Below, piece by piece: positions 2,300-28,160 of a stretch of 29,054 nucleotides of DNA. The DNA lies in IMG/VR virus record IMGVR_UViG_3300021963_000500, positions 1 to 29,054 of that record; one strand, 5' to 3'. The position numbers and the translations under genes are program-made. Under the pieces are notes generated by a model, which searched no databases, was not told the DNA's origin, and saw only the letters and a list, made by a program, of their open reading frames with translations. Every line of letters begins with the position of its first letter. Positions within the stretch are counted from its first letter, which is position 1. Origin of the DNA: a virus.

Positions 2300-5200
2300 A
2301 TGGCAACAAACAACAAAGTATTCGTATCTCCTGGAGTGTATACCTCTGAAGTTGATTTGAGTTTTGTGGCACAAAGTGTCGGTGTTACAACTTTAGGTAT
2401 TGTTGGTGAGACTTTAAAAGGTCCCGCTTTCGAACCTATCTTTATCAGAAACTTCGATGAGTTTTCATCATATTTTGGGGGTACTTCTCCTGAGAAATTT
2501 ATAAACACTCAAATACCTAAGTATGAAGCGGCTTATATTGCAAAATCATATTTACAACAATCTAATCAGTTGTTTGTAACAAGAGTATTAGGTTTATCAG
2601 GTTATGATGCGGGACCATCTTGGTCAATTACAACTAAGGCAAATGTAGACCCAACAACTATAGATTTTTATTGTGAAAGTGCAACAACTGTAGATTGTGT
2701 TACAGAATGTGTTGATATTAAAACAATAGATTTCGCAATTGATTTTACAGGTTGTTCAAATAGTATCTCAAGTATAACTTTTACAGATAATACACAGATA
2801 CCTTCGATGATTGCGGATAGACTTAACTTACCGTATGAGAATTTTGATGGTAGTGTAGGAACACTATATCAAGATATGACTAACCAAGTCTTTGATATTA
2901 TGAACGCATCAAATCCTTACACTGCGGAAACATCAAACATTTATTATTATGGTGCGGTTGAATCAAGTGACTATAATTCATTATCAACAGTATTCACAAA
3001 TGAGACAAACGTATTTGGGGTTCCAAATGTTAGTTCTGATTTAGAAAATTATTCAGCACCTCAAAATGACCCATGGTACTATGCTTTATTTGATAACCTT
3101 GGTAACTCGGTTTATAGTGGTTATTCTTATTGGTCAATTGTTACAGGATTAACAGAAGTTATTTCGACTACTACCACAACTAGTACATCAACAACTTCAA
3201 CTACAACTAACCCATGTGTTACACCAACACCAATCTCAACAACTACAACAACAACCGCAAAACCAACTAAATGTTATACAGGTACTTTAACAGGTAGAAT
3301 TTATGTTTACTCAGGTACTGCTTACTCTGATTTCGATGATTTAGTAGTAGCGACATTACGTTCAAGAGGTTTAGCGACTTACGGTAGTGATAACGGAGCG
3401 GTTTATGAAGTTCCTGGTGGACTGAACGCTTATGGAGATTTTGATGGTCACTTAGTACAAATGGATTGTTCAAATTCATATTCAGGAGTTACTAAAAACC
3501 CATTCTCAACATTTGGATTGAATGTGACTAATAAAGATGGTCAACAATTCTTCTTCGAGACTTCATTATCTAATTCAGATAGTAAATATATTTCTAAAGT
3601 ATTTGGACAGTCTAATTTTGCAAAACCAAAAGACGTTGTTCCTTTATTTGTTGAAGAAAGATTCCAAGCATTACTAACATATGGTTGGAGAAAAGGTTAT
3701 ATTAGAGGTTTAGATTGTCAATTAACTGCATTACCTGATGCTAGACAAGGGGTTGACCCAACATCTATCGCTTGGTACTTGGAGAAATATCAATCACCTA
3801 CTTCACCTTGGGTTGTATCTGAATTAAGAGGTAGTAAAGTTTACAACTTATTTAAATTTACAACAATTGCAGACGGAGACGCTGCGAACGTAGAGGTTAA
3901 AATGTCAATTGCTAATATCTCATTTAATAATGGTACATTCGATGTTATCGTTAGAGATTTCTTTGACTCAGATAATAACCCTGTAGTTCTTGAGAAATTT
4001 ACTAATTGTACTATGGACCCTGGAAGTAATAGTTTTATCGCTAAGAAAATTGGAACATTAGACGGTGAGTACGCATTGAATTCAAAATACATTATGGTTG
4101 AAATTAACGAGGATGCTCCAATTGACGCATTACCTTGTGGTTTCCGTGGATATACATTTAGAGAGTATGCGGGTGTTAGACCTCCATTCCCAATCTATAA
4201 AACTAAGTATGACTTCCCTGGCGAGGTGGTTTATAACCCACCATTTGGTTTATCTTCAGGAGCTGACGATTCTATCAGAAGTGCGGGAGACAATGTTCGT
4301 AGAACTTACTTAGGTATTTCAGATACTGTAGGTTATGATGTTGATTTCTACACATACAAAGGTAAACAATTACCATTAGATGTTTGTACTGATGTTTCAG
4401 GTGATGAATGGGCTTACCAAACAAGAGGTTTCCACATGGACGTTAACGCGAGTGGTATCACAATATCAAACGCATTTGCGACAAGTGGTACACCAGCATT
4501 CTATGTAGGTTCCGCACCATTTACTTCAGACCCTGATAATGATTCAAACCCATATTATAGACTTTACGCTCGTAAATTCTCTTTATTATGTAAGGGAGGA
4601 TTTGATGGATGGGATATCTATACAGAACATAGAACAAATAATGATAACTTCGTTTTAGGTAAAATTGGTTATAGAAACGGTGCATGTCCGTCATTCAAAT
4701 ACCCAACGGCAACAGGATGGGGAGCATTTAAACAAATCACTGTTGGTAACAATTCTTCAGATTGGGCAAACACTGACTATTACGCTTACTTATTAGGACA
4801 ACAAACATTCTCAAACCCTGAAGCGGTTAACATTAACGTTTTCGTAACTCCAGGTATTGACTATTTAAATAACTCTAACTTAGTGGAAGACGCGATTGAG
4901 ATGATTGAGTTTAATAGAGCGGATTCTGTTTATATCTGTACAACACCTGACTACAATATGTTTGTACCGTCAACAGGTGACCAATTAGATATGATTTACC
5001 CTCAAGAAGCGGTTGATAATTTGGAGACTTCGGGAATAGACTCTAACTATACTGCAACATACTACCCATGGGTATTAACAAGAGATACTGTTAACAATAC
5101 ACAAATCTATATTCCACCAACTGCGGAGGTTACAAGAAACTTGGCGTTAACGGATAACATCGCTTTCCCTTGGTTCGCTGCTGCGGGTTACACTCGTGGT

Positions 5201-5662
5201 ATCGTAAACGCAATTAAAGCAAGAAAGAAACTTACTCAAGAAGATAGAGATGTTCTTTATAAAGGTAGAATTAACCCAATCGCAACCTTCTCTGATGTTG
5301 GTACGGTAATTTGGGGTAACAAAACTTTACAAATTAGAGAATCTGCACTTGACAGAATCAACGTAAGAAGATTGTTGTTACAAGCTCGTAAATTGATTTC
5401 TGCGGTTTCTGTAAGATTATTGTTTGAACAAAACGACCAAAAAGTAAGACAAGATTTCTTAGATGCGGTTAACCCTATCTTAGACGCTATCAGAAGAGAC
5501 AGAGGTTTATATGATTTCCGTGTAACAGTTTCTTCAGATACTGCGGATTTAGATAGAAACCAAATGACAGGTAAAATCTATATCAAACCAACTAAATCCC
5601 TTGAGTTTATAGACATCACGTTCTACATTACTCCAACAGGGGCATCGTTTGATAACATTTAA
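2300..5662 (+). CDS. 18: Tail sheath protein (gp18-like), enlarged
   Basis: This protein forms the contractile sheath around the tail tube. The N-terminus (KVFVSPGVYTSEVDLS, then VGVTTLGIVGETLKGPAF) is the classic sheath start. The C-terminus carries the conserved sheath core, including NPIATFSDVGTVIWGNKTL, INVRRLLLQARKLIS and IYIKPTKSLEFIDITFYI, which makes the inter-subunit strands. At 1120 residues it is far longer than T4 gp18 (659). The excess lies mid-protein and includes a Thr/Ser/Pro-rich stretch at residues 289-325, almost all threonine on either side of C306 and closed by C325. This resembles a flexible, possibly glycosylated linker to a surface-exposed domain. The start is ATG after an A-rich leader; a strong terminator follows. 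Family call is certain; the role of the inserts is inference. Confidence 0.97.
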   Translation: MATNNKVFVSPGVYTSEVDLSFVAQSVGVTTLGIVGETLKGPAFEPIFIRNFDEFSSYFGGTSPEKFINTQIPKYEAAYIAKSYLQQSNQLFVTRVLGLSGYDAGPSWSITTKANVDPTTIDFYCESATTVDCVTECVDIKTIDFAIDFTGCSNSISSITFTDNTQIPSMIADRLNLPYENFDGSVGTLYQDMTNQVFDIMNASNPYTAETSNIYYYGAVESSDYNSLSTVFTNETNVFGVPNVSSDLENYSAPQNDPWYYALFDNLGNSVYSGYSYWSIVTGLTEVISTTTTTSTSTTSTTTNPCVTPTPISTTTTTTAKPTKCYTGTLTGRIYVYSGTAYSDFDDLVVATLRSRGLATYGSDNGAVYEVPGGLNAYGDFDGHLVQMDCSNSYSGVTKNPFSTFGLNVTNKDGQQFFFETSLSNSDSKYISKVFGQSNFAKPKDVVPLFVEERFQALLTYGWRKGYIRGLDCQLTALPDARQGVDPTSIAWYLEKYQSPTSPWVVSELRGSKVYNLFKFTTIADGDAANVEVKMSIANISFNNGTFDVIVRDFFDSDNNPVVLEKFTNCTMDPGSNSFIAKKIGTLDGEYALNSKYIMVEINEDAPIDALPCGFRGYTFREYAGVRPPFPIYKTKYDFPGEVVYNPPFGLSSGADDSIRSAGDNVRRTYLGISDTVGYDVDFYTYKGKQLPLDVCTDVSGDEWAYQTRGFHMDVNASGITISNAFATSGTPAFYVGSAPFTSDPDNDSNPYYRLYARKFSLLCKGGFDGWDIYTEHRTNNDNFVLGKIGYRNGACPSFKYPTATGWGAFKQITVGNNSSDWANTDYYAYLLGQQTFSNPEAVNINVFVTPGIDYLNNSNLVEDAIEMIEFNRADSVYICTTPDYNMFVPSTGDQLDMIYPQEAVDNLETSGIDSNYTATYYPWVLTRDTVNNTQIYIPPTAEVTRNLALTDNIAFPWFAAAGYTRGIVNAIKARKKLTQEDRDVLYKGRINPIATFSDVGTVIWGNKTLQIRESALDRINVRRLLLQARKLISAVSVRLLFEQNDQKVRQDFLDAVNPILDAIRRDRGLYDFRVTVSSDTADLDRNQMTGKIYIKPTKSLEFIDITFYITPTGASFDNI

Positions 5663-6649: not shown

Positions 6650-7138
6650 ATGGCTGATTTACTAATGAAAATGCCGATTCCTTATGAACCAAAAAGGAAT
6701 AATAGATTTATACTTCGTTTCCCTTCTACGTTGGGAATTAACGAATGGTTCGTAGAAACTGCGGCTCGTCCACATATAACAATTAACTCTGTTGAGATTC
6801 CGTTCTTAAACACTTCAACATATGTTGCAGGACGTTTTACATGGGGTGAATTAAACGTTACTTTTAGAGACCCTATCGGTCCTTCAGCGTCACAAGCTCT
6901 TATGGAATGGGTACGTTTATGTGCTGAGTCTGTAACAGGTCGTATGGGTTACGCTGCGGGTTACAAGAAAAACGTAGACCTTGAGATGTTAGACCCAACA
7001 GGTGTTGTGGTTGAGAAATGGATTATGGAAGGAACATGGATGAAAGATGTTAACTTCAACTCGTTAGGTTACTCTGATGATAAAGTAGCAACAGTTACTG
7101 CTCAGCTTAGAATGGACCGTTGTATTTTAGTTTACTAA
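6650..7138 (+). CDS. 19: Tail tube protein (gp19-like)
   Basis: This 162-residue protein has the usual size of T4 gp19 (163) and polymerises as hexameric rings into the inner tail tube through which DNA is ejected. Recognisable features are an N-terminal RNNRFILRFPSTLGI strand, a central YVAGRFTWGELNVTFRDPI block and a C-terminal beta pair ending in MDRCILVY. These match the tube fold, with alternating aromatic and hydrophobic strands and a helix between (ALMEWVRLCAES). It has its own putative promoter and a strong terminator directly downstream, so it can be made in high amounts separately from its neighbours, as expected for the major tube subunit. The start follows an A-rich leader ending CAACACA. 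Confidence 0.93.
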   Translation: MADLLMKMPIPYEPKRNNRFILRFPSTLGINEWFVETAARPHITINSVEIPFLNTSTYVAGRFTWGELNVTFRDPIGPSASQALMEWVRLCAESVTGRMGYAAGYKKNVDLEMLDPTGVVVEKWIMEGTWMKDVNFNSLGYSDDKVATVTAQLRMDRCILVY

Positions 7139-7262: not shown

Positions 7263-8018
7263 ATGGAACAAAGTTTAATTGAAGCTGGAACACAAAATTT
7301 TAATTTACCTCATGATGTGGTTACATTACCATCAGGAGGGGTATTCTACAAAAATAAAAAAAAGGCAATCAAAGTCGGATATTTAACGGCTAATGATGAG
7401 AACATTTTAATTGGTGCCGCTCAAAACTCAAATAATATTATTTTAACCTTACTTAGAAGTAAAATTTATGAAACTGAGTTAAGACCTGAGGACATGTTAA
7501 ATGGGGATATTGAGGCAATTATGATTTATCTACGAAATACATCATTTGGTCCTGAATACACATTAACATTAACAGACCCAAGAACATCTAAACAGTTTAC
7601 AACTAATGTAATTTTAGATGAGTTAAATATAAAACAAAGTCAACATAAACCTGATGAACAAGGTTTATTCACAACTACATTACCAAAGACAGGCTCAACA
7701 GTAAAATTAAAACCATTAACATATGGTGAAATTATAGAAATTTCTGATTTTGCTGACCAATACCCTGTAGGTAGAGTTGCACCAACCGTTACTTGGAGAT
7801 TAAATAAAATTATTCAAGAAGTTAATGGTAGTGCAGACAAAGGAGATATTTCAATGTTTATTGAGACATTACCAATTATGGATTCTAAATACATCCGTAC
7901 ATTTATGAAAGAAAACGAACCGTCTTTAGACCTAACAAAAACAGTAAAAGCCCCGTCAGGAGAATTGGTAACATTTGATATTACCTTTGGGGTGGAGTTT
8001 TTTCGGCCTTTCTTTTAA
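7263..8018 (+). CDS. gp26-like tail assembly chaperone / baseplate-hub assembly protein
   Basis: A 251-residue protein resembling the T4 gp26 (T4_baseplate) family. The marker is the early VVTLPSGGVFYKNKK segment, equivalent to the LPS-x-G-x-x-Y signature of that family, followed by VGYLTANDENIL and a helix-rich middle. The C-terminal third (TVKLKPLTYGEIIEISDFAD) is helical. It lies between the tube and tape measure genes, the standard position for the chaperone that coats the tape measure during tail assembly. Its last 47 bases are also open in the +1 frame, and the final codons TTT TTT CGG and TTT TAA are slip-prone. A minor longer product of 299 residues is therefore likely. Family call is by motif and position. 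Confidence 0.65.
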   Translation: MEQSLIEAGTQNFNLPHDVVTLPSGGVFYKNKKKAIKVGYLTANDENILIGAAQNSNNIILTLLRSKIYETELRPEDMLNGDIEAIMIYLRNTSFGPEYTLTLTDPRTSKQFTTNVILDELNIKQSQHKPDEQGLFTTTLPKTGSTVKLKPLTYGEIIEISDFADQYPVGRVAPTVTWRLNKIIQEVNGSADKGDISMFIETLPIMDSKYIRTFMKENEPSLDLTKTVKAPSGELVTFDITFGVEFFRPFF

Positions 8019-8163
8019 TTACCGACAATATCTCATAGAAGAATATTATTTAATGGCGAAATTTCTCAGAACTTCGTATTCTGACTTTTATGGTATGCCG
8101 ACTTATATGAGAAAATATCTTATTGATAAAATTATAGAACATAACACACCAAAGAATTCTTAA
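7975..8163 (+). CDS. Second, frameshift-accessed part of the tail assembly chaperone
   Basis: The frame is open from 7972 to the stop at 8161-8163. Its only in-frame starts are a TTG at 7975, deep inside the previous gene, and an ATG at 8054 giving 36 residues. Joined by +1 slippage at 8013-8016 it adds 48 residues to the 251-residue chaperone. The segment has a helix (YRQYLIEEYYLMAKFL), a YSDFYGMPTYMRKYLID turn-helix and a charged end. This pattern is common in the second parts of phage tail chaperones (the lambda GT logic), which recruit the tape measure. The alternative is independent translation from ATG 8054. It ends inside the hairpin at 8140-8180, 39 bases before the tape measure ATG. 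Confidence 0.55.
   Translation: MILPLGWSFFGLSFNYRQYLIEEYYLMAKFLRTSYSDFYGMPTYMRKYLIDKIIEHNTPKNS
7998..8019 (+). other. Candidate +1 programmed frameshift site
   Basis: The zero frame reads TTT TTT CGG CCT TTC TTT TAA. At the end, TTT (8013-8015) is followed by TAA, so tRNA-Phe can slip +1 onto another TTT (8014-8016) while the ribosome waits at the stop, as in prfB. The next codon is then AAT. A second site is TTT at 8001-8003 slipping to TTC before CGG, probably rare in an AT-rich genome. Both lead into the frame that runs to 8163. Confidence 0.5.
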
Positions 8164-23332: not shown

Positions 23333-24190
23333 ATGGCGACAAACAGTTTAGACGCAGTACTTGCACAGTATGAAAAGGCAAGTCAAGGTGGTTCATCTAA
23401 CACCTCAAAAATGTCTCAGGACGAAAGAATGAAAAAATACTTCGCAGCAATCCTTAAGGATAATGAGAAGCAAGGACAAAAAAGATTAAGAATCTTACCA
23501 ACACCTGATGGTTCTTCACCTTTCAAAGAAGTATGGTTCCACGAAGTTCAAGTGGATGGGAAATGGGTAAAACTATTTGACCCAGGAAAAAATGACAATG
23601 AGCGTTCACCATTGAGTGAAGTTCATGAAGAGTTAATGTCTACAGGACGTGAGTCAGACAAAGAACTTGCAAAACAATACAAACCCCGTAAATTTTACAT
23701 CGTTAAAGTAATTGACCGTGACAACGAGCAAGATGGTGTTAAATTCTGGCGTTTTAAACACAACTACAAGAACGAAGGAATTCTTGATAAGATTATTCCG
23801 ATTTGGAGAGCTAAAGGTGATATTACTGACGCAACTACAGGTCGTGACATTATTCTTGAGTTGACAAAAGCAAAGACTCCAAAAGGAGCAACATACACTG
23901 TTATTCAAACAGTTATGTACGATGACCCAACAACTGTTCATGAAGATGATGAAACTGCAAAATCATGGATTACAGATGAGTTGACATGGGAAGACGTTTA
24001 TTCTAAAAAACCTGTCGAATATCTTGAGGCAATCGCACGAGGAGAAACTCCACGTTGGGATAGTGAAAAAGGTGGATATTCATACGGTAATTCGGATGAG
24101 TCAGAAATCTCTATGGGTGGTGGAAACACACCAAAAGTAGAAGAAGACCCACAAGCTAATGATGAAATTAGCGAAGAGTTACCATTCTAA
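23333..24190 (+). CDS. 32: Single-stranded DNA-binding protein (gp32-like)
   Basis: A 285-residue protein that coats single-stranded DNA in replication and recombination. The core begins QKRLRILPTPDGSSPFKEVW, matching T4 gp32's RFLP...PF segment, continues VQVDGKWVKLFDP, and has the KPRKFYIVKVIDRDNEQDGVKFW strand pair of the OB-like fold. The C-terminus is acidic and ends EISEELPF, like the protein-binding tails of gp32 and bacterial SSB. The whole protein has no cysteine, so the zinc site of T4 gp32 (one His, three Cys) is absent; the region after LFDPGKN replaces it. Its own sigma70-like promoter and a downstream terminator isolate it, allowing high expression. UvsX follows, as expected for partners in strand exchange. 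Confidence 0.85.
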   Translation: MATNSLDAVLAQYEKASQGGSSNTSKMSQDERMKKYFAAILKDNEKQGQKRLRILPTPDGSSPFKEVWFHEVQVDGKWVKLFDPGKNDNERSPLSEVHEELMSTGRESDKELAKQYKPRKFYIVKVIDRDNEQDGVKFWRFKHNYKNEGILDKIIPIWRAKGDITDATTGRDIILELTKAKTPKGATYTVIQTVMYDDPTTVHEDDETAKSWITDELTWEDVYSKKPVEYLEAIARGETPRWDSEKGGYSYGNSDESEISMGGGNTPKVEEDPQANDEISEELPF

Positions 24191-24196
24191 TTCATT

Positions 24197-24240
24197 GAAC
24201 TTGGACATCTACATAGACAAGGTGTCCAAGTTCTTATTTT
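24197..24240 (+). terminator. Intrinsic terminator after the SSB gene
   Basis: A perfect 11-bp stem, GAACTTGGACA (24197-24207) with TGTCCAAGTTC (24223-24233), has a 15-base loop and is followed by TTATTTTTT. It lies seven bases after the SSB stop. No clear separate promoter for uvsX is seen, so read-through may feed it. Confidence 0.85.
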
Positions 24241-24271
24241 TTAACAAATTTTAAACAAACACATAGACATT

Positions 24272-25273
24272 ATGGCAATTAAGAAAAATGACTTTAAATC
24301 AATTAAAGACAAGTTTTCTACATCCGCTAAATACAAACCCCAAAGATTCTTTGATTTAGGGGCTGAGTTTTTAGACGCGGTTGGACTACCAGGACCTGCC
24401 ATTGGACACATTAATATGTTGTTAGGTCATAGTGATACAGGAAAGACTACCGCGTTGGTTAAAACTGCGGTTGATGCTCAAAAGAAAAGTATTCTACCTG
24501 TATTCATTATCACAGAACAAAAATGGTCCTTTGAACACGCAAAACTAATGGGGTTTCAATGTGAGGAAGTAGTCGATGAGGAAACAGGAGAATTGGATTG
24601 GGATGGTTTTTACATCTTCAATAACAATTTTGATTACATCGAACAAATTACTGATTATATCAACGATTTGTTAGATGCACAAGAAAAAGGAGATTTGGAT
24701 TACAGTTTATTATTCCTTTGGGATTCTGTAGGTTCTGTTCCTTGTAAAATGACTTACGAAGGTAAGGGAGGTAAACAACACAACGCATCTGTTTTGGCGG
24801 ATAAGATTGGTATGGGTATTAACCAAAGAATCTCAGGAAGTCGTAAATCAGATTCTAAATTTGAAAACACTTTAGTTATTGTTAACCAACCTTGGGTTGA
24901 GTTACCTGACAATCCTTTCGGACAACCTAAGATTAAAGCTAAAGGTGGTGAAGCGATTTGGTTGAACTCATCATTAGTATTTTTATTCGGAAATCAAAAA
25001 GGTGCTGGCACAACAAAAATTACGGCTACTAAAGATAAAAGAACTGTTAAGTTTGCATCACGAACTAAGGTATCTGTTATGAAAAACCACATCAATGGAC
25101 TTGGTTATGAGGACGGTAAGATTATAGTAACCCCACATGGTTTCATTGCGGGAAAAGAATCGTCAGAAGAAAAGGCTTCAATTGAAAAGTACAAAAAAGA
25201 ATACGCGGAGTATTGGAATCAAATTATCGGAACCGAGGGTGACTTTGATTTGAGAGAAGAAAAAGAACAGTAA
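24272..25273 (+). CDS. uvsX: UvsX-like recombinase (RecA family)
   Basis: A 333-residue ATP-dependent strand-exchange protein that forms filaments on DNA and drives recombination-dependent replication and repair. Walker A is GHSDTGKT at 52-59; the RecA catalytic-Glu segment lies at FIITEQKW (78-85); Walker B is SLLFLWDSV around 145-152. A DNA-binding loop region follows (KGGKQHNASVLADKIG), then the VIVNQPWVELPDNPFG segment characteristic of phage UvsX. The C-terminus is short and acidic (DFDLREEKEQ). Length is near T4 UvsX (391) minus part of its C-terminal region. It lies between SSB and RNase H genes. The leader is A-rich with no Shine-Dalgarno sequence. Confidence 0.92.
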   Translation: MAIKKNDFKSIKDKFSTSAKYKPQRFFDLGAEFLDAVGLPGPAIGHINMLLGHSDTGKTTALVKTAVDAQKKSILPVFIITEQKWSFEHAKLMGFQCEEVVDEETGELDWDGFYIFNNNFDYIEQITDYINDLLDAQEKGDLDYSLLFLWDSVGSVPCKMTYEGKGGKQHNASVLADKIGMGINQRISGSRKSDSKFENTLVIVNQPWVELPDNPFGQPKIKAKGGEAIWLNSSLVFLFGNQKGAGTTKITATKDKRTVKFASRTKVSVMKNHINGLGYEDGKIIVTPHGFIAGKESSEEKASIEKYKKEYAEYWNQIIGTEGDFDLREEKEQ

Positions 25274-25293
25274 TAACTATAAACCAACAACAA

Positions 25294-26298
25294 GTGATAA
25301 AAACATTATTAGTAGATGGAAATAACCTTCTAAAGATTGGATTTCATGGGGTAAAGGACTTTTACCACGAAGGTAAACATGTTGGTGGGGTATGGCATTT
25401 TTTAAACACTGTTAGACGTTTTATTGAAGAACAAAATTTTGACAAAGTTGTAGTATTTTGGGATGGAGAAGAGAACTCATTAAGTAGGAAACTTCTCTAT
25501 CCGAGATACAAAGAAAATAGAATTGTTGAAATTAATGAACAAAAAGTAACATCATTCCAAGAACAAAAAGAACGAGTAAAACAATACTTAGAGGAAATGT
25601 TCGTGAGACAAATCAACATCACTAACAATGAGGCGGATGATTTAATTGCTTACTATTGTCAAATTTCGCATAACGAATTTAAAACCATTTTTTCATCAGA
25701 TAAAGACCTTACACAACTTATCTCAGATAAAGTGAGTATCTATTCCCCATCGGCGAAACAAACGTATAAGAACGGGGACAAAATCAAAATGTATGAATGT
25801 TCTATTCCACATGAGAATGTGAAAACTTATAAAATATTGTCGGGAGATAAATCAGATAATATTGATGGGATTTATTATTTAGGTGAGAAAACTTTAATCA
25901 AATTATTCCCTGAGCTACTTGACGAAACAGTTAATCTAACCGATATTTTAACAAAGGCGGAAAGATTATTATCTGAAGATAAAGACAATACGGTCTTAAA
26001 AAATCTTCTGTCAGGGAAAACAAAAACAGGTATTTACGGAAACGAATTTTTTGAGATAAATGAAAAGATTGTAGACTTATCAAACCCATTAATTACCGAT
26101 GAAGGTAAACAATTAGTTGAACTGTATTATACAGAATCATTAGACCCTGATGGGAGGGGACACCGAAATATTATTAAAATGATGATGGAAGACGGATTTT
26201 TCAAATTCCTACCTAAAGGGGACGATAATTGGGTGAAATTCCTAACCCCATTTTTAAAATTAACAAGAAAAGAAAAGAAAAAATTTAAACAAAAATAA
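25294..26298 (+). CDS. rnh: RNase H / 5'-3' nuclease (FEN family, T4 Rnh-like)
   Basis: A 334-residue flap-endonuclease-family enzyme that removes RNA primers and 5' flaps during lagging-strand synthesis. The metal-binding acids are in place: D8 in LLVDGNN, D57 in FWDGEE, E113-x-D115-D116 in NEADDLIAYY, D136 and D138 in SSDKDL, and D185, D188 and D191 in GDKSDNIDG, which leads into the helix-hairpin-helix (YYLGEKTLIKLF). The R-Y-K-x-N-R motif (71-76) is the arch/clamp base. The C-terminus is lysine-rich. Size is near T4 Rnh (305). The start is GTG at 25294; it places D8 as in the family and no upstream ATG is available. Its stop lies one base before the next ATG. Confidence 0.88.
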   Translation: MIKTLLVDGNNLLKIGFHGVKDFYHEGKHVGGVWHFLNTVRRFIEEQNFDKVVVFWDGEENSLSRKLLYPRYKENRIVEINEQKVTSFQEQKERVKQYLEEMFVRQINITNNEADDLIAYYCQISHNEFKTIFSSDKDLTQLISDKVSIYSPSAKQTYKNGDKIKMYECSIPHENVKTYKILSGDKSDNIDGIYYLGEKTLIKLFPELLDETVNLTDILTKAERLLSEDKDNTVLKNLLSGKTKTGIYGNEFFEINEKIVDLSNPLITDEGKQLVELYYTESLDPDGRGHRNIIKMMMEDGFFKFLPKGDDNWVKFLTPFLKLTRKEKKKFKQK

Positions 26299-26299
26299 C

Positions 26300-26752
26300 A
26301 TGAGAGACCAAGACACAACCAAATTAGAATTCTTAATGATGGTTAACGACAACATCATCGTTCAACGATTTTTCAACGTCAGAGAATACAATCCTGACGC
26401 TAAAAGTTCTACAGAATTGTATGAATACCTTTATGACTTTAAAGGTCAATTGGAAAGAGAATTGAAAATGAAATCTGTTACCTATATGTTGGACAATACA
26501 TATGAGATTTCACAGAATCCTGCAATGTTAGAGACATCAAATACTGAAGGTCCTGAACATTTTAACATTTTTATTAAGTCAGGTGACATGACAATTTGTC
26601 ATAGAAGAATGGACGCTAAAGTCTTCCCGCCTAAAATAAGATATACCGTAGACATACGTCCGCACATAAAAAGTATACTTTCGGATTTGACTGACATTTT
26701 TTCCTCTAAAAATTTAACATACGAGTTCGCTGGAATTCCGACAAAGGGGTAA
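26300..26752 (+). CDS. Unknown protein between RNase H and helicase genes
   Basis: A 150-residue soluble protein that I do not recognise. It begins with a hydrophobic helix (TKLEFLMMVNDNIIVQRFF), has a charged middle (YEYLYDFKGQLERELK), a beta-type part (HFNIFIKSGDMTICHRRM) and a C-terminal helix (IKSILSDLTDIFSS). No cysteine cluster or nucleotide-binding motif is visible. It starts one base after the RNase H stop, and the helicase gene begins 28 bases after it. Embedding in a replication operon suggests a replication or transcription accessory factor, but the sequence itself gives no function. Confidence 0.75.
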   Translation: MRDQDTTKLEFLMMVNDNIIVQRFFNVREYNPDAKSSTELYEYLYDFKGQLERELKMKSVTYMLDNTYEISQNPAMLETSNTEGPEHFNIFIKSGDMTICHRRMDAKVFPPKIRYTVDIRPHIKSILSDLTDIFSSKNLTYEFAGIPTKG

Positions 26753-26759
26753 TATTTAT
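26753..26759 (+). promoter_or_regulatory. Weak TATTTAT element before the helicase gene
   Basis: TATTTAT begins one base after the stop of the upstream gene and 28 bases before the helicase ATG. The following bases (CTTATACAAAAC) fit the A-rich consensus less well than at the structural genes. Confidence 0.25.
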
Positions 26760-26780
26760 CTTATACAAAACTTAAAAAAT

Positions 26781-28160
26781 ATGGCGTCAAACAAAAACTT
26801 TGATTATCTCGGAAGTAATTTTCAAATCCAATTATTAAATCAAATCGTAGTAGATAAAGACTTTTCAAGGTCTATTATTGATGTGATTGAAACTAATTAT
26901 TTTGAAAACAAATACTTCAAGATAATCATACAAATGATTAAAGAGTACTACTCTAAATACGAACACACACCAACGTTTGACACTTTAGAACAAATCACAA
27001 AGTCGGAATTACAACAAGAATTAGCATCTAAAATTGTTTTAGATACTTTAACTAAAATTAAGGATGCTCCTATTGAAGGACAAGAATTTGTTCAAGAGAA
27101 AGCGTTGAAATTTTGTAAACAACAAGAATTACAAAAGGCTATTACCAAAGCACAAAAAGTGATTGATGGTGGAGAGTTTGAAAACTACGATACATTAGAG
27201 ACTTTGGTAAGAGAAGCATTACAGATTGGTGAGAGAGAAGACGGAATGTCGGATGTTTTCGCAAATTTGGATGAGGTATTGAACGAGGATTATCGTCACC
27301 CAATCCCTATGGGAATACCAGGTATTGATAGACTACTTAAAGGTGGTCTCGCTAAGGGAGAAATCGGTGTTGTATTAGCACCAACAGGGGTTGGTAAATC
27401 AACGTTATTAACTAAAATTGCTAACCACTCATTTAATTTAGGATATAACGTACTTCAAATATTTTTTGAAGACAACCCTAAAATTATTCAAAGAAAACAC
27501 ATTACATTGTGGACCAAAGTACATCCTGATGAATTAACCTTGAAGAAAGAAGAGGTTATGGCGAAAGTCAAATCAATTAAAGACTCTATGGAGAATAAGT
27601 TGATTATGAAAAAACTACCATCAGATACTGTAACAATGTTACAAATCAAAAATCAAATTAGAAAGATGATTGCTGACGGAGTTAAAGTTGACATGGTGTT
27701 ACTTGATTATATTGATTGTGTTGTACCTGACAAGAACTTAGGTGATGAATGGAAATCTGAAGGGTCTGTAATGAGAGGATTTGAAGCAATGTGTCACGAA
27801 TTAAATCTTGTAGGTTGGACTGCGACCCAAGGTAATAGAAGTTCAATCTCTTCCGAGGTTGTAACTACAGACCAAATGGGTGGGTCAATCAAAAAAGCTC
27901 AAGTTGGTCACGTAATCATTTCCGTGGCAAAAACTTTACAACAAAAAGAAATGAAACTAGCGACAATCGCTATAACTAAATCACGAATTGGAGATGATGG
28001 TGTTGTATTTGAAAACTGTAAATTTGATAACGGTATGTTAGAAATTGATACAGAATCGTCCGTAACTTTCTTAGGTCTTGAAGAACAGAATGAAGAAAAG
28101 AATAGACAGAGAATCAAAGATTTATTGGACAAAAGAAAACAAAGAGAAGAAAAAAATTAA
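26781..28160 (+). CDS. 41: Replicative DNA helicase (gp41 / DnaB family)
   Basis: A 459-residue hexameric helicase that unwinds the replication fork on the lagging strand. Residues about 1-150 are the helical N-terminal domain. The RecA-like motor follows: Walker [10 protein letters not shown] at 200-208, catalytic Glu in IFFED (E230), Walker B MVLLDYID at 305-312, and TATQGNR around 348-352 as sensor, replacing DnaB's usual QLNR-type motif. The C-terminus ([15 protein letters not shown]-type region, then [13 protein letters not shown]) carries the basic finger of the DnaB family. Length matches T4 gp41 (475). No separate primase-helicase fusion is present, so a primase gene should lie elsewhere. 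NrdB starts five bases after its stop. Confidence 0.9.

Follow-up and report, generated by a model that had tools for sequence, protein, structure and literature searches.

A gp26-like tail assembly chaperone gene with a predicted +1 frameshift site and a conserved C-terminal extension

Introduction

The virus sequence analysed here (29,054 nucleotides, positions 1 to 29,054 of the 29-kb IMG/VR record IMGVR_UViG_3300021963_000500; hereafter the window) contains a gp26-like tail assembly chaperone (TAC) gene, the 3' end of which is overlapped by a second open reading frame (ORF) in the +1 relation. The locus raises the question of whether this second frame is a gene of its own or the C-terminal part of a longer chaperone and, in the latter case, where ribosomes would change frame. 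A preliminary description of the sequence had proposed a +1 frameshift driven by the stop codon at TTT TAA and had mentioned TTT TTT CGG as a second site. Comparison with related phages upholds a +1 frameshift that joins the chaperone to a C-terminal extension, but places it at the second site, which is invariant at its synonymous positions in 80/80 loci; TTT TAA is not conserved. On these sequence comparisons it is very probable that the locus encodes both tail assembly chaperones, with the long form arising from a +1 slip at UUU_UUU_CGG.

Reading frames and conservation of the extension

The chaperone gene (7263–8018; all features described are on the + strand) starts with ATG and encodes a zero-frame product of 251 amino acids, TAC-N, with matches to PF12322 (T4_baseplate; E = 1.8e-10) and PHROG 150 (E = 2.3e-14). 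The +1 frame is open for 63 codons (7972–8163) and, as previously described, has no good start: the only candidates are TTG (7975 and 7987) and, at 8053, an ATG that is not conserved. In-frame translation with one four-base step gives a post-shift part (8005–8163) consisting of GLSF and a 48-residue extension, which terminates with ...SYSDFYGMPTYMRKYLIDKIIEHNTPKNS before the stop. The predicted fusion, TAC-NC, is 299 amino acids in length, and the product of this size that had been forecast is supported by the sequence. A −1 slip would stop about 11 codons further on, also as described, and is excluded in the window family.

A search of viral contigs identified 284 relatives; the best 80 of the 284 were retrieved as window-family loci and yielded a non-redundant set of 23 sequences. 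Metagenomic loci are not independent, and the non-redundant counts lessen this dependence without abolishing it. A homologous extension of 45–49 amino acids is kept in the +1 frame in 79/79 relatives with readable ends, which is conservation far beyond chance. The ratio of nonsynonymous to synonymous polymorphism (pN/pS) of the extension (median 0.50, pooled 0.38) is close to that of gp26 itself and diversity peaks at the third positions of the +1 frame, showing that purifying selection acts on the extension as a protein. No start codon for the extension is conserved among the relatives, and it is this start-less extension in the other frame that is conserved alongside the slip site.

The slip site

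The candidate slip site is TTT_TTT_C (7998–8004), at which UUU in the P site would re-pair as UUC with CGG (8004–8006) in the A site. The codons across the 80 loci read TTT TTT CGN CCT TTC TTY (or TAT) TRA, of which TTT TTT CGN CCT TTC is invariant throughout; UUU_C in the P site followed by CGN, the signature of the UUU_CGN class of +1 sites, is thus present in every window-family locus. At each TTT codon 0 synonymous changes were observed in the 23 non-redundant sequences against 71.8 expected, TTC accounts for one third of all Phe codons in these genes, and the other conserved Phe columns upstream all mix TTT and TTC. Two-frame coding can account for the invariance of CCT and TTC. In several loci (L011–L015, L026 and L080) the codons GTA GAR create a +1-frame TAG immediately ahead of TTT TTT, and a shift would therefore have to occur between this TAG and the zero-frame stop. 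CGG is used for only two of the 8996 codons in the window. The other CGG, at 357, likewise follows TTT (GAT TTT CGG TTG in ORF 135–431), and no frameshift product is expected there because a +1 step meets a stop immediately.

The stop-driven model places a prfB-like +1 slip on the last sense codon (UUU_UAA). Both TTT TAA (8013–8018) and TTT TTT CGG (7998–8006) are present in the window as reported, and a +1 step from UUU across the zero-frame stop (TAA, 8016–8018) would leave tRNA-Phe perfectly paired. The codon before the stop, however, is TTT in only three of the 80 loci (TTC in 19 and TAT in two of the 23 non-redundant sequences) and the stop itself varies; the combinations that most relatives have, TTC|TGA, TTC|TAA or TAT|TGA, give no re-pairing. 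The model was removed for this reason, and as it would also leave unexplained both the invariant TTT TTT and the conserved +1 coding from the site to the stop, we consider it highly improbable. Since the conserved site is TTT TTT CGG, the predicted junction is EFF-GLSF-NYR and not the peptide PFF-NYR (RPFF-NYR) put forward with TTT TAA.

From the overlap and its frame, the conservation of site, hairpin and extension, the protein family, the gene order and the single gene copy, all read from the sequence, we infer the shift and its efficiency, together with a role for the hairpin and a division of labour between the products. The majority of ribosomes would read 7263–8018 and produce the short TAC-N. 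A minority would arrive at UUU_UUU_CGG while tRNA-Phe occupies the second UUU (P site) and CGG, an extremely rare codon, stands in the A site. A forward step of this tRNA by one base, from UUU to UUC, would then carry reading into the +1 frame as GGC CUU UCU UUU AAU ... and yield the long TAC-NC. If lambda gpG/gpGT is taken as a guide, the short form would be expected to coat the tape measure protein and the extension to recruit tail tube subunits.

Distant relatives and natural variants

Signals of the same type are kept over nearly 180 related phage sequences when the window family is taken together with more distant groups. Mel-JY01-type loci (82, of which 57 are non-redundant at 85% nucleotide identity) carry TTT TTT TGG CCT (76/82), CTT TTT TGG CCT (3/82) or TTT TTT TAC CCT (2/82), a third group has TTC TTT TGG CCT in 14 loci, and TTT TGG CCT is found in 93 of the 99 loci of more distant phages. 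The 3' end of the Mel-JY01-type gene has by far the lowest synonymous variation in the gene. A +1 extension also follows TTC TTT CGT CCC in Streptococcus phage GXN1, TTT TTT CAC in Bacillus phage SP-15, TTT TTT AGT in Listeria phage LIS04 and TTT CTT TGG CCT in Flavobacterium phage immuto. Re-pairing in the +1 direction at UUU_Y (CUU_U in immuto) is possible in all of these groups and isolates except LIS04.

These variants bear on two further alternatives. A −2 slip at UUUUUU, for which phage Mu provides a precedent (PMC5009743), would give a junction longer by one residue (EFFFGLSFNYR), and in the window family the U6 run would let the P-site tRNA pair again after moving back by two bases; in the relatives with TTC TTT TGG and TTC TTT CGT, however, the tRNA would mismatch on UCU, whereas +1 re-pairing is possible in all of them, so that a −2 slip is very unlikely. 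Transcriptional slippage, which would produce a mixed mRNA pool, could be favoured by the T6–T7 runs of many members, but the run is only T4 in TTC TTT TGG and T3 in TTC TTT CGT; these short runs, like the rare CGN codon and the hairpin, argue for a translational event and make this explanation extremely improbable.

In two distant loci, L181 and L187 (2209–2300 in each), the TTT codon is lost and the extension, with an added N-terminal stretch, has become a separate −1-frame ORF that starts at an ATG of its own immediately behind the stop. These loci behave like a natural control for the slip site.

Several observations weigh against a +1 slip. A +1-frame ATG is present 38 bases before the stop in ten of the 23 non-redundant relatives and TCAGGAG resembles a ribosome-binding site, so that some independent initiation is possible. 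Together with the TTG at 7975 and the ATG of L181 and L187, the AGGAG-like sequence upstream would suit an extension that is a separate gene, started within the overlap or by reinitiation after the stop. This is nevertheless very unlikely: in three loci (L008, L015 and L026) the conserved extension is not preceded by any start codon, the slip codons do not vary, and the two loci with an ATG of their own are those without the site. In addition, the A-site codon differs between groups (CGN, UGG, UAC, CAC and AGU), and the rarity of CGG was counted in window codons, while the speed of its decoding would depend on the host, for which a search of GTDB contigs gave no match. Finally, no significant downstream RNA fold was found in any group, weak consensus folds being confined to the third group, which is small and composed of near-identical loci.

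Some related loci differ in annotation or frame. In public records the extension is cut or given as a separate small hypothetical protein in immuto (L225 3226–3449), SP-15 (L086 3740–3859) and Microcystis phage Mel-JY01 (L083 3752–3988), and it is without annotation in GXN1 and LIS04. Stenotrophomonas phage RAS14 (L088 3722–3990), a distant relative, has a T_TTT_TTT_A run and a −1-frame extension without a start codon.

An upstream RNA hairpin

Upstream of the site, the window family has a predicted RNA hairpin, the outer stem of which pairs a 5' arm, RCCCCN (7950–7955), with a 3' arm, YGGGGU (7988–7993), where GGGGU is also Shine–Dalgarno-like. An inner hairpin (7967–7985; arms 7967–7973 and 7979–7985) is enclosed, and the internal loop contains an invariant UCAGGA (7956–7961). 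RCC CCN TCA GGA (66 to 55 bases before the stop) and GGG G (27 to 24 bases before the stop) are present in 80/80 loci, an invariance that is restricted to the window family, and the CC of RCC CCN is retained through an Ala-to-Thr replacement. Five of the seven pairs of the inner hairpin show two-sided changes, with compensatory combinations that include GGUAAC/GUUACC, GUAAUA/UAUUAC, CUAACA/UGUUGG, CUGAC/GUCGG and GACAA/UUGUC. Over 13 pairs in 23 sequences, 89% of cells are paired; in the whole structure 29 cells are changed on both sides, compared with 10.7 ± 2.4 after shuffling and no more than 12 in the slid controls. Covariation is 0.313 (0.182 ± 0.015 in shuffles) and falls to 0.055–0.165 when the partner is slid by 1–3 columns, a control biased in favour of the hairpin because the hairpin was first spotted in the very sequences tested. 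RNAalifold alone predicts the outer stem and not the inner hairpin.

The 3' arm of the outer stem ends four bases 5' of UUUUUUC and would thus lie inside the exit channel of a ribosome positioned at the slip site. The hairpin probably stimulates the slip. As to how, we tentatively suggest, with some doubt, a new type of bacterial +1 stimulator consisting of a covarying upstream hairpin. The GGGGU arm would enter the ribosome, possibly pairing there with the anti-Shine–Dalgarno sequence; on its exit it would be recaptured by the waiting CCCC arm, and refolding would pull the mRNA by one base in the +1 direction, moving the P-site UUU to UUC while CGG awaits its tRNA.

Two other RNA signals were considered and rejected. 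A pseudoknot spanning the site, in which UCAGGAGAA would pair with UUCUUCUGA, is 94% pairable but shows no covariation, and UGA-to-UAA changes are uncompensated. Shine–Dalgarno-like stimulation does not hold as a general rule: close to the site, such sequences are strong in just two sets, the window family and part of the cyanophage group.

Relation to T4 gp26 and gp51

The gene is, on the sequence evidence, a tail assembly chaperone, because it follows a tail tube gene (gp19-like, 6650–7138; PHROG 4542, E = 9.7e-26) and is a member of the T4 gp26/gp51 family (PF12322, PHROG 150), which makes it a homologue of a recognized TAC. T4 gp26 consists of the PF12322 domain alone, and gp51 of the same domain and a C-terminal piece matching PHROG 634. 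The window extension is connected to the latter by a chain of profile comparisons (window extension to Mel type, E = 4e-9; Mel type to cyanophage extension, E = 3e-7; cyanophage extension to gp51 C-terminus, E = 4.5e-9), a direct comparison of the two ends of this chain being not significant. Models of the 299-residue fusion and of a T4-like gp51 (pLDDT 82 for each) have the same C-terminal long-short-long helices. A fold search of the PDB with the fusion model gave no match, and a search of viral predicted structures returned gp26-like proteins.

T4 and the window group thus share a short form and a form with a C-terminal helical extension, but T4 encodes these in two divergent genes and the window group has one gene and a predicted +1 frameshift. 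T4 has two full-length copies of the family, whereas 14 of the 15 other records have one, and S-PM2 has one and a separate extension piece. Long relatives (up to 309 kb) likewise have a single copy, as do the complete Mel-JY01, GXN1, SP-15, LIS04 and immuto. A T4-type second full-length member with an in-frame extension was absent from the other records searched, among which the window genome is a fragment. Short and long forms would therefore be expected from one gene by frameshifting.

Comparison with known frameshifting systems

As in lambda gpG/gpGT and other chaperones, the window gene follows the tail tube gene, and in those systems a low-frequency frameshift adds a C-terminal extension; they usually shift by −1 and the window family by a predicted +1. 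T4-like tail chaperones, −1 versions among them, have reportedly been identified by Vladimirov, Gautam and Davidson (Virology 2022). In the literature consulted, with that study represented through the papers citing it, no +1 UUU_YGG or UUU_CGN tail chaperone and no 5' hairpin of such a type was found, and the class appears to be undescribed so far. Shifts of −1, −2 and +1 all occur among tail chaperones, T4 being excepted, and a +1 shift has been called 'very likely' for the chaperone of the archaeal virus HSTV-2 (PMC5009743). Some T4-like phages have two genes, a short one and a long fusion (PMC10885494).

T4-like cyanophages (S-PM2, S-CREM2 and others) likewise have overlapping gp26 and extension ORFs with a poly-T run near the stop. 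In them the extension follows T_TTT_TTN in the −1 frame, as opposed to the +1 frame of the window family, many have a Shine–Dalgarno-like GGAGGG upstream, and these phages appear to use a −1 slip. The sites found here agree with the poly-T −1 signals mentioned for T4-like TAC-N genes (PMC12846349). Among the loci retrieved, cyanophage-type gp26 genes (L192–L214, L226–L229, L231 and L232) end in T_TTT_TT[C/A/T/G] and have a gp51-like extension in the −1 frame, often without ATG; GGAGGG is located about 10–15 bases upstream in many of them, like known −1 stimulators.

UUU_C slips with an A-site CGN are used in influenza and other eukaryotic viruses, and a wider class has been predicted (PMC3498833). 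The window site has in common with influenza A PA-X the P-site UUU_C to UUC step and the A-site CGN (PMC3498833), but PA-X involves eukaryotic decoding, an E-site UCC and no hairpin, and the window bacterial decoding, an E-site UUU and an upstream hairpin. The likeness is convergent and not homologous. With prfB the window shares the +1 direction and a Shine–Dalgarno-like sequence upstream (GGGGU). GGGGU lies several bases farther from the slip codon than in prfB.

One chaperone family would thus arrive at the same short and long pair in different ways (frameshifting by +1 or by −1, gene duplication in T4 and a separate start), which would make the evolution of the tail-length machinery traceable. 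The locus would also add a bacterial case, large and conserved, to the UUU_CGN/UUU_UGG +1 sites, which are best known from influenza virus; its 5' hairpin, a candidate stimulator, is directly testable. Current annotations of immuto, SP-15, LIS04, GXN1 and Mel-JY01 omit or misplace the extension.

Genomic setting

The chaperone gene lies between the tail tube and tape measure genes, the tape measure side being taken from immuto and LIS04, in which an annotated tape measure gene follows the chaperone; in the window it is followed by two large ORFs without a family match. The tail sheath protein of the window (2300–5662, 1120 amino acids) has recognized sheath domains only in residues 841–1111, with several hundred residues without a family match. 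Directly after the tail genes is a replication cluster (23333–28160) with a gp32-like single-strand binding protein, a UvsX-like recombinase and a DnaB-like helicase.
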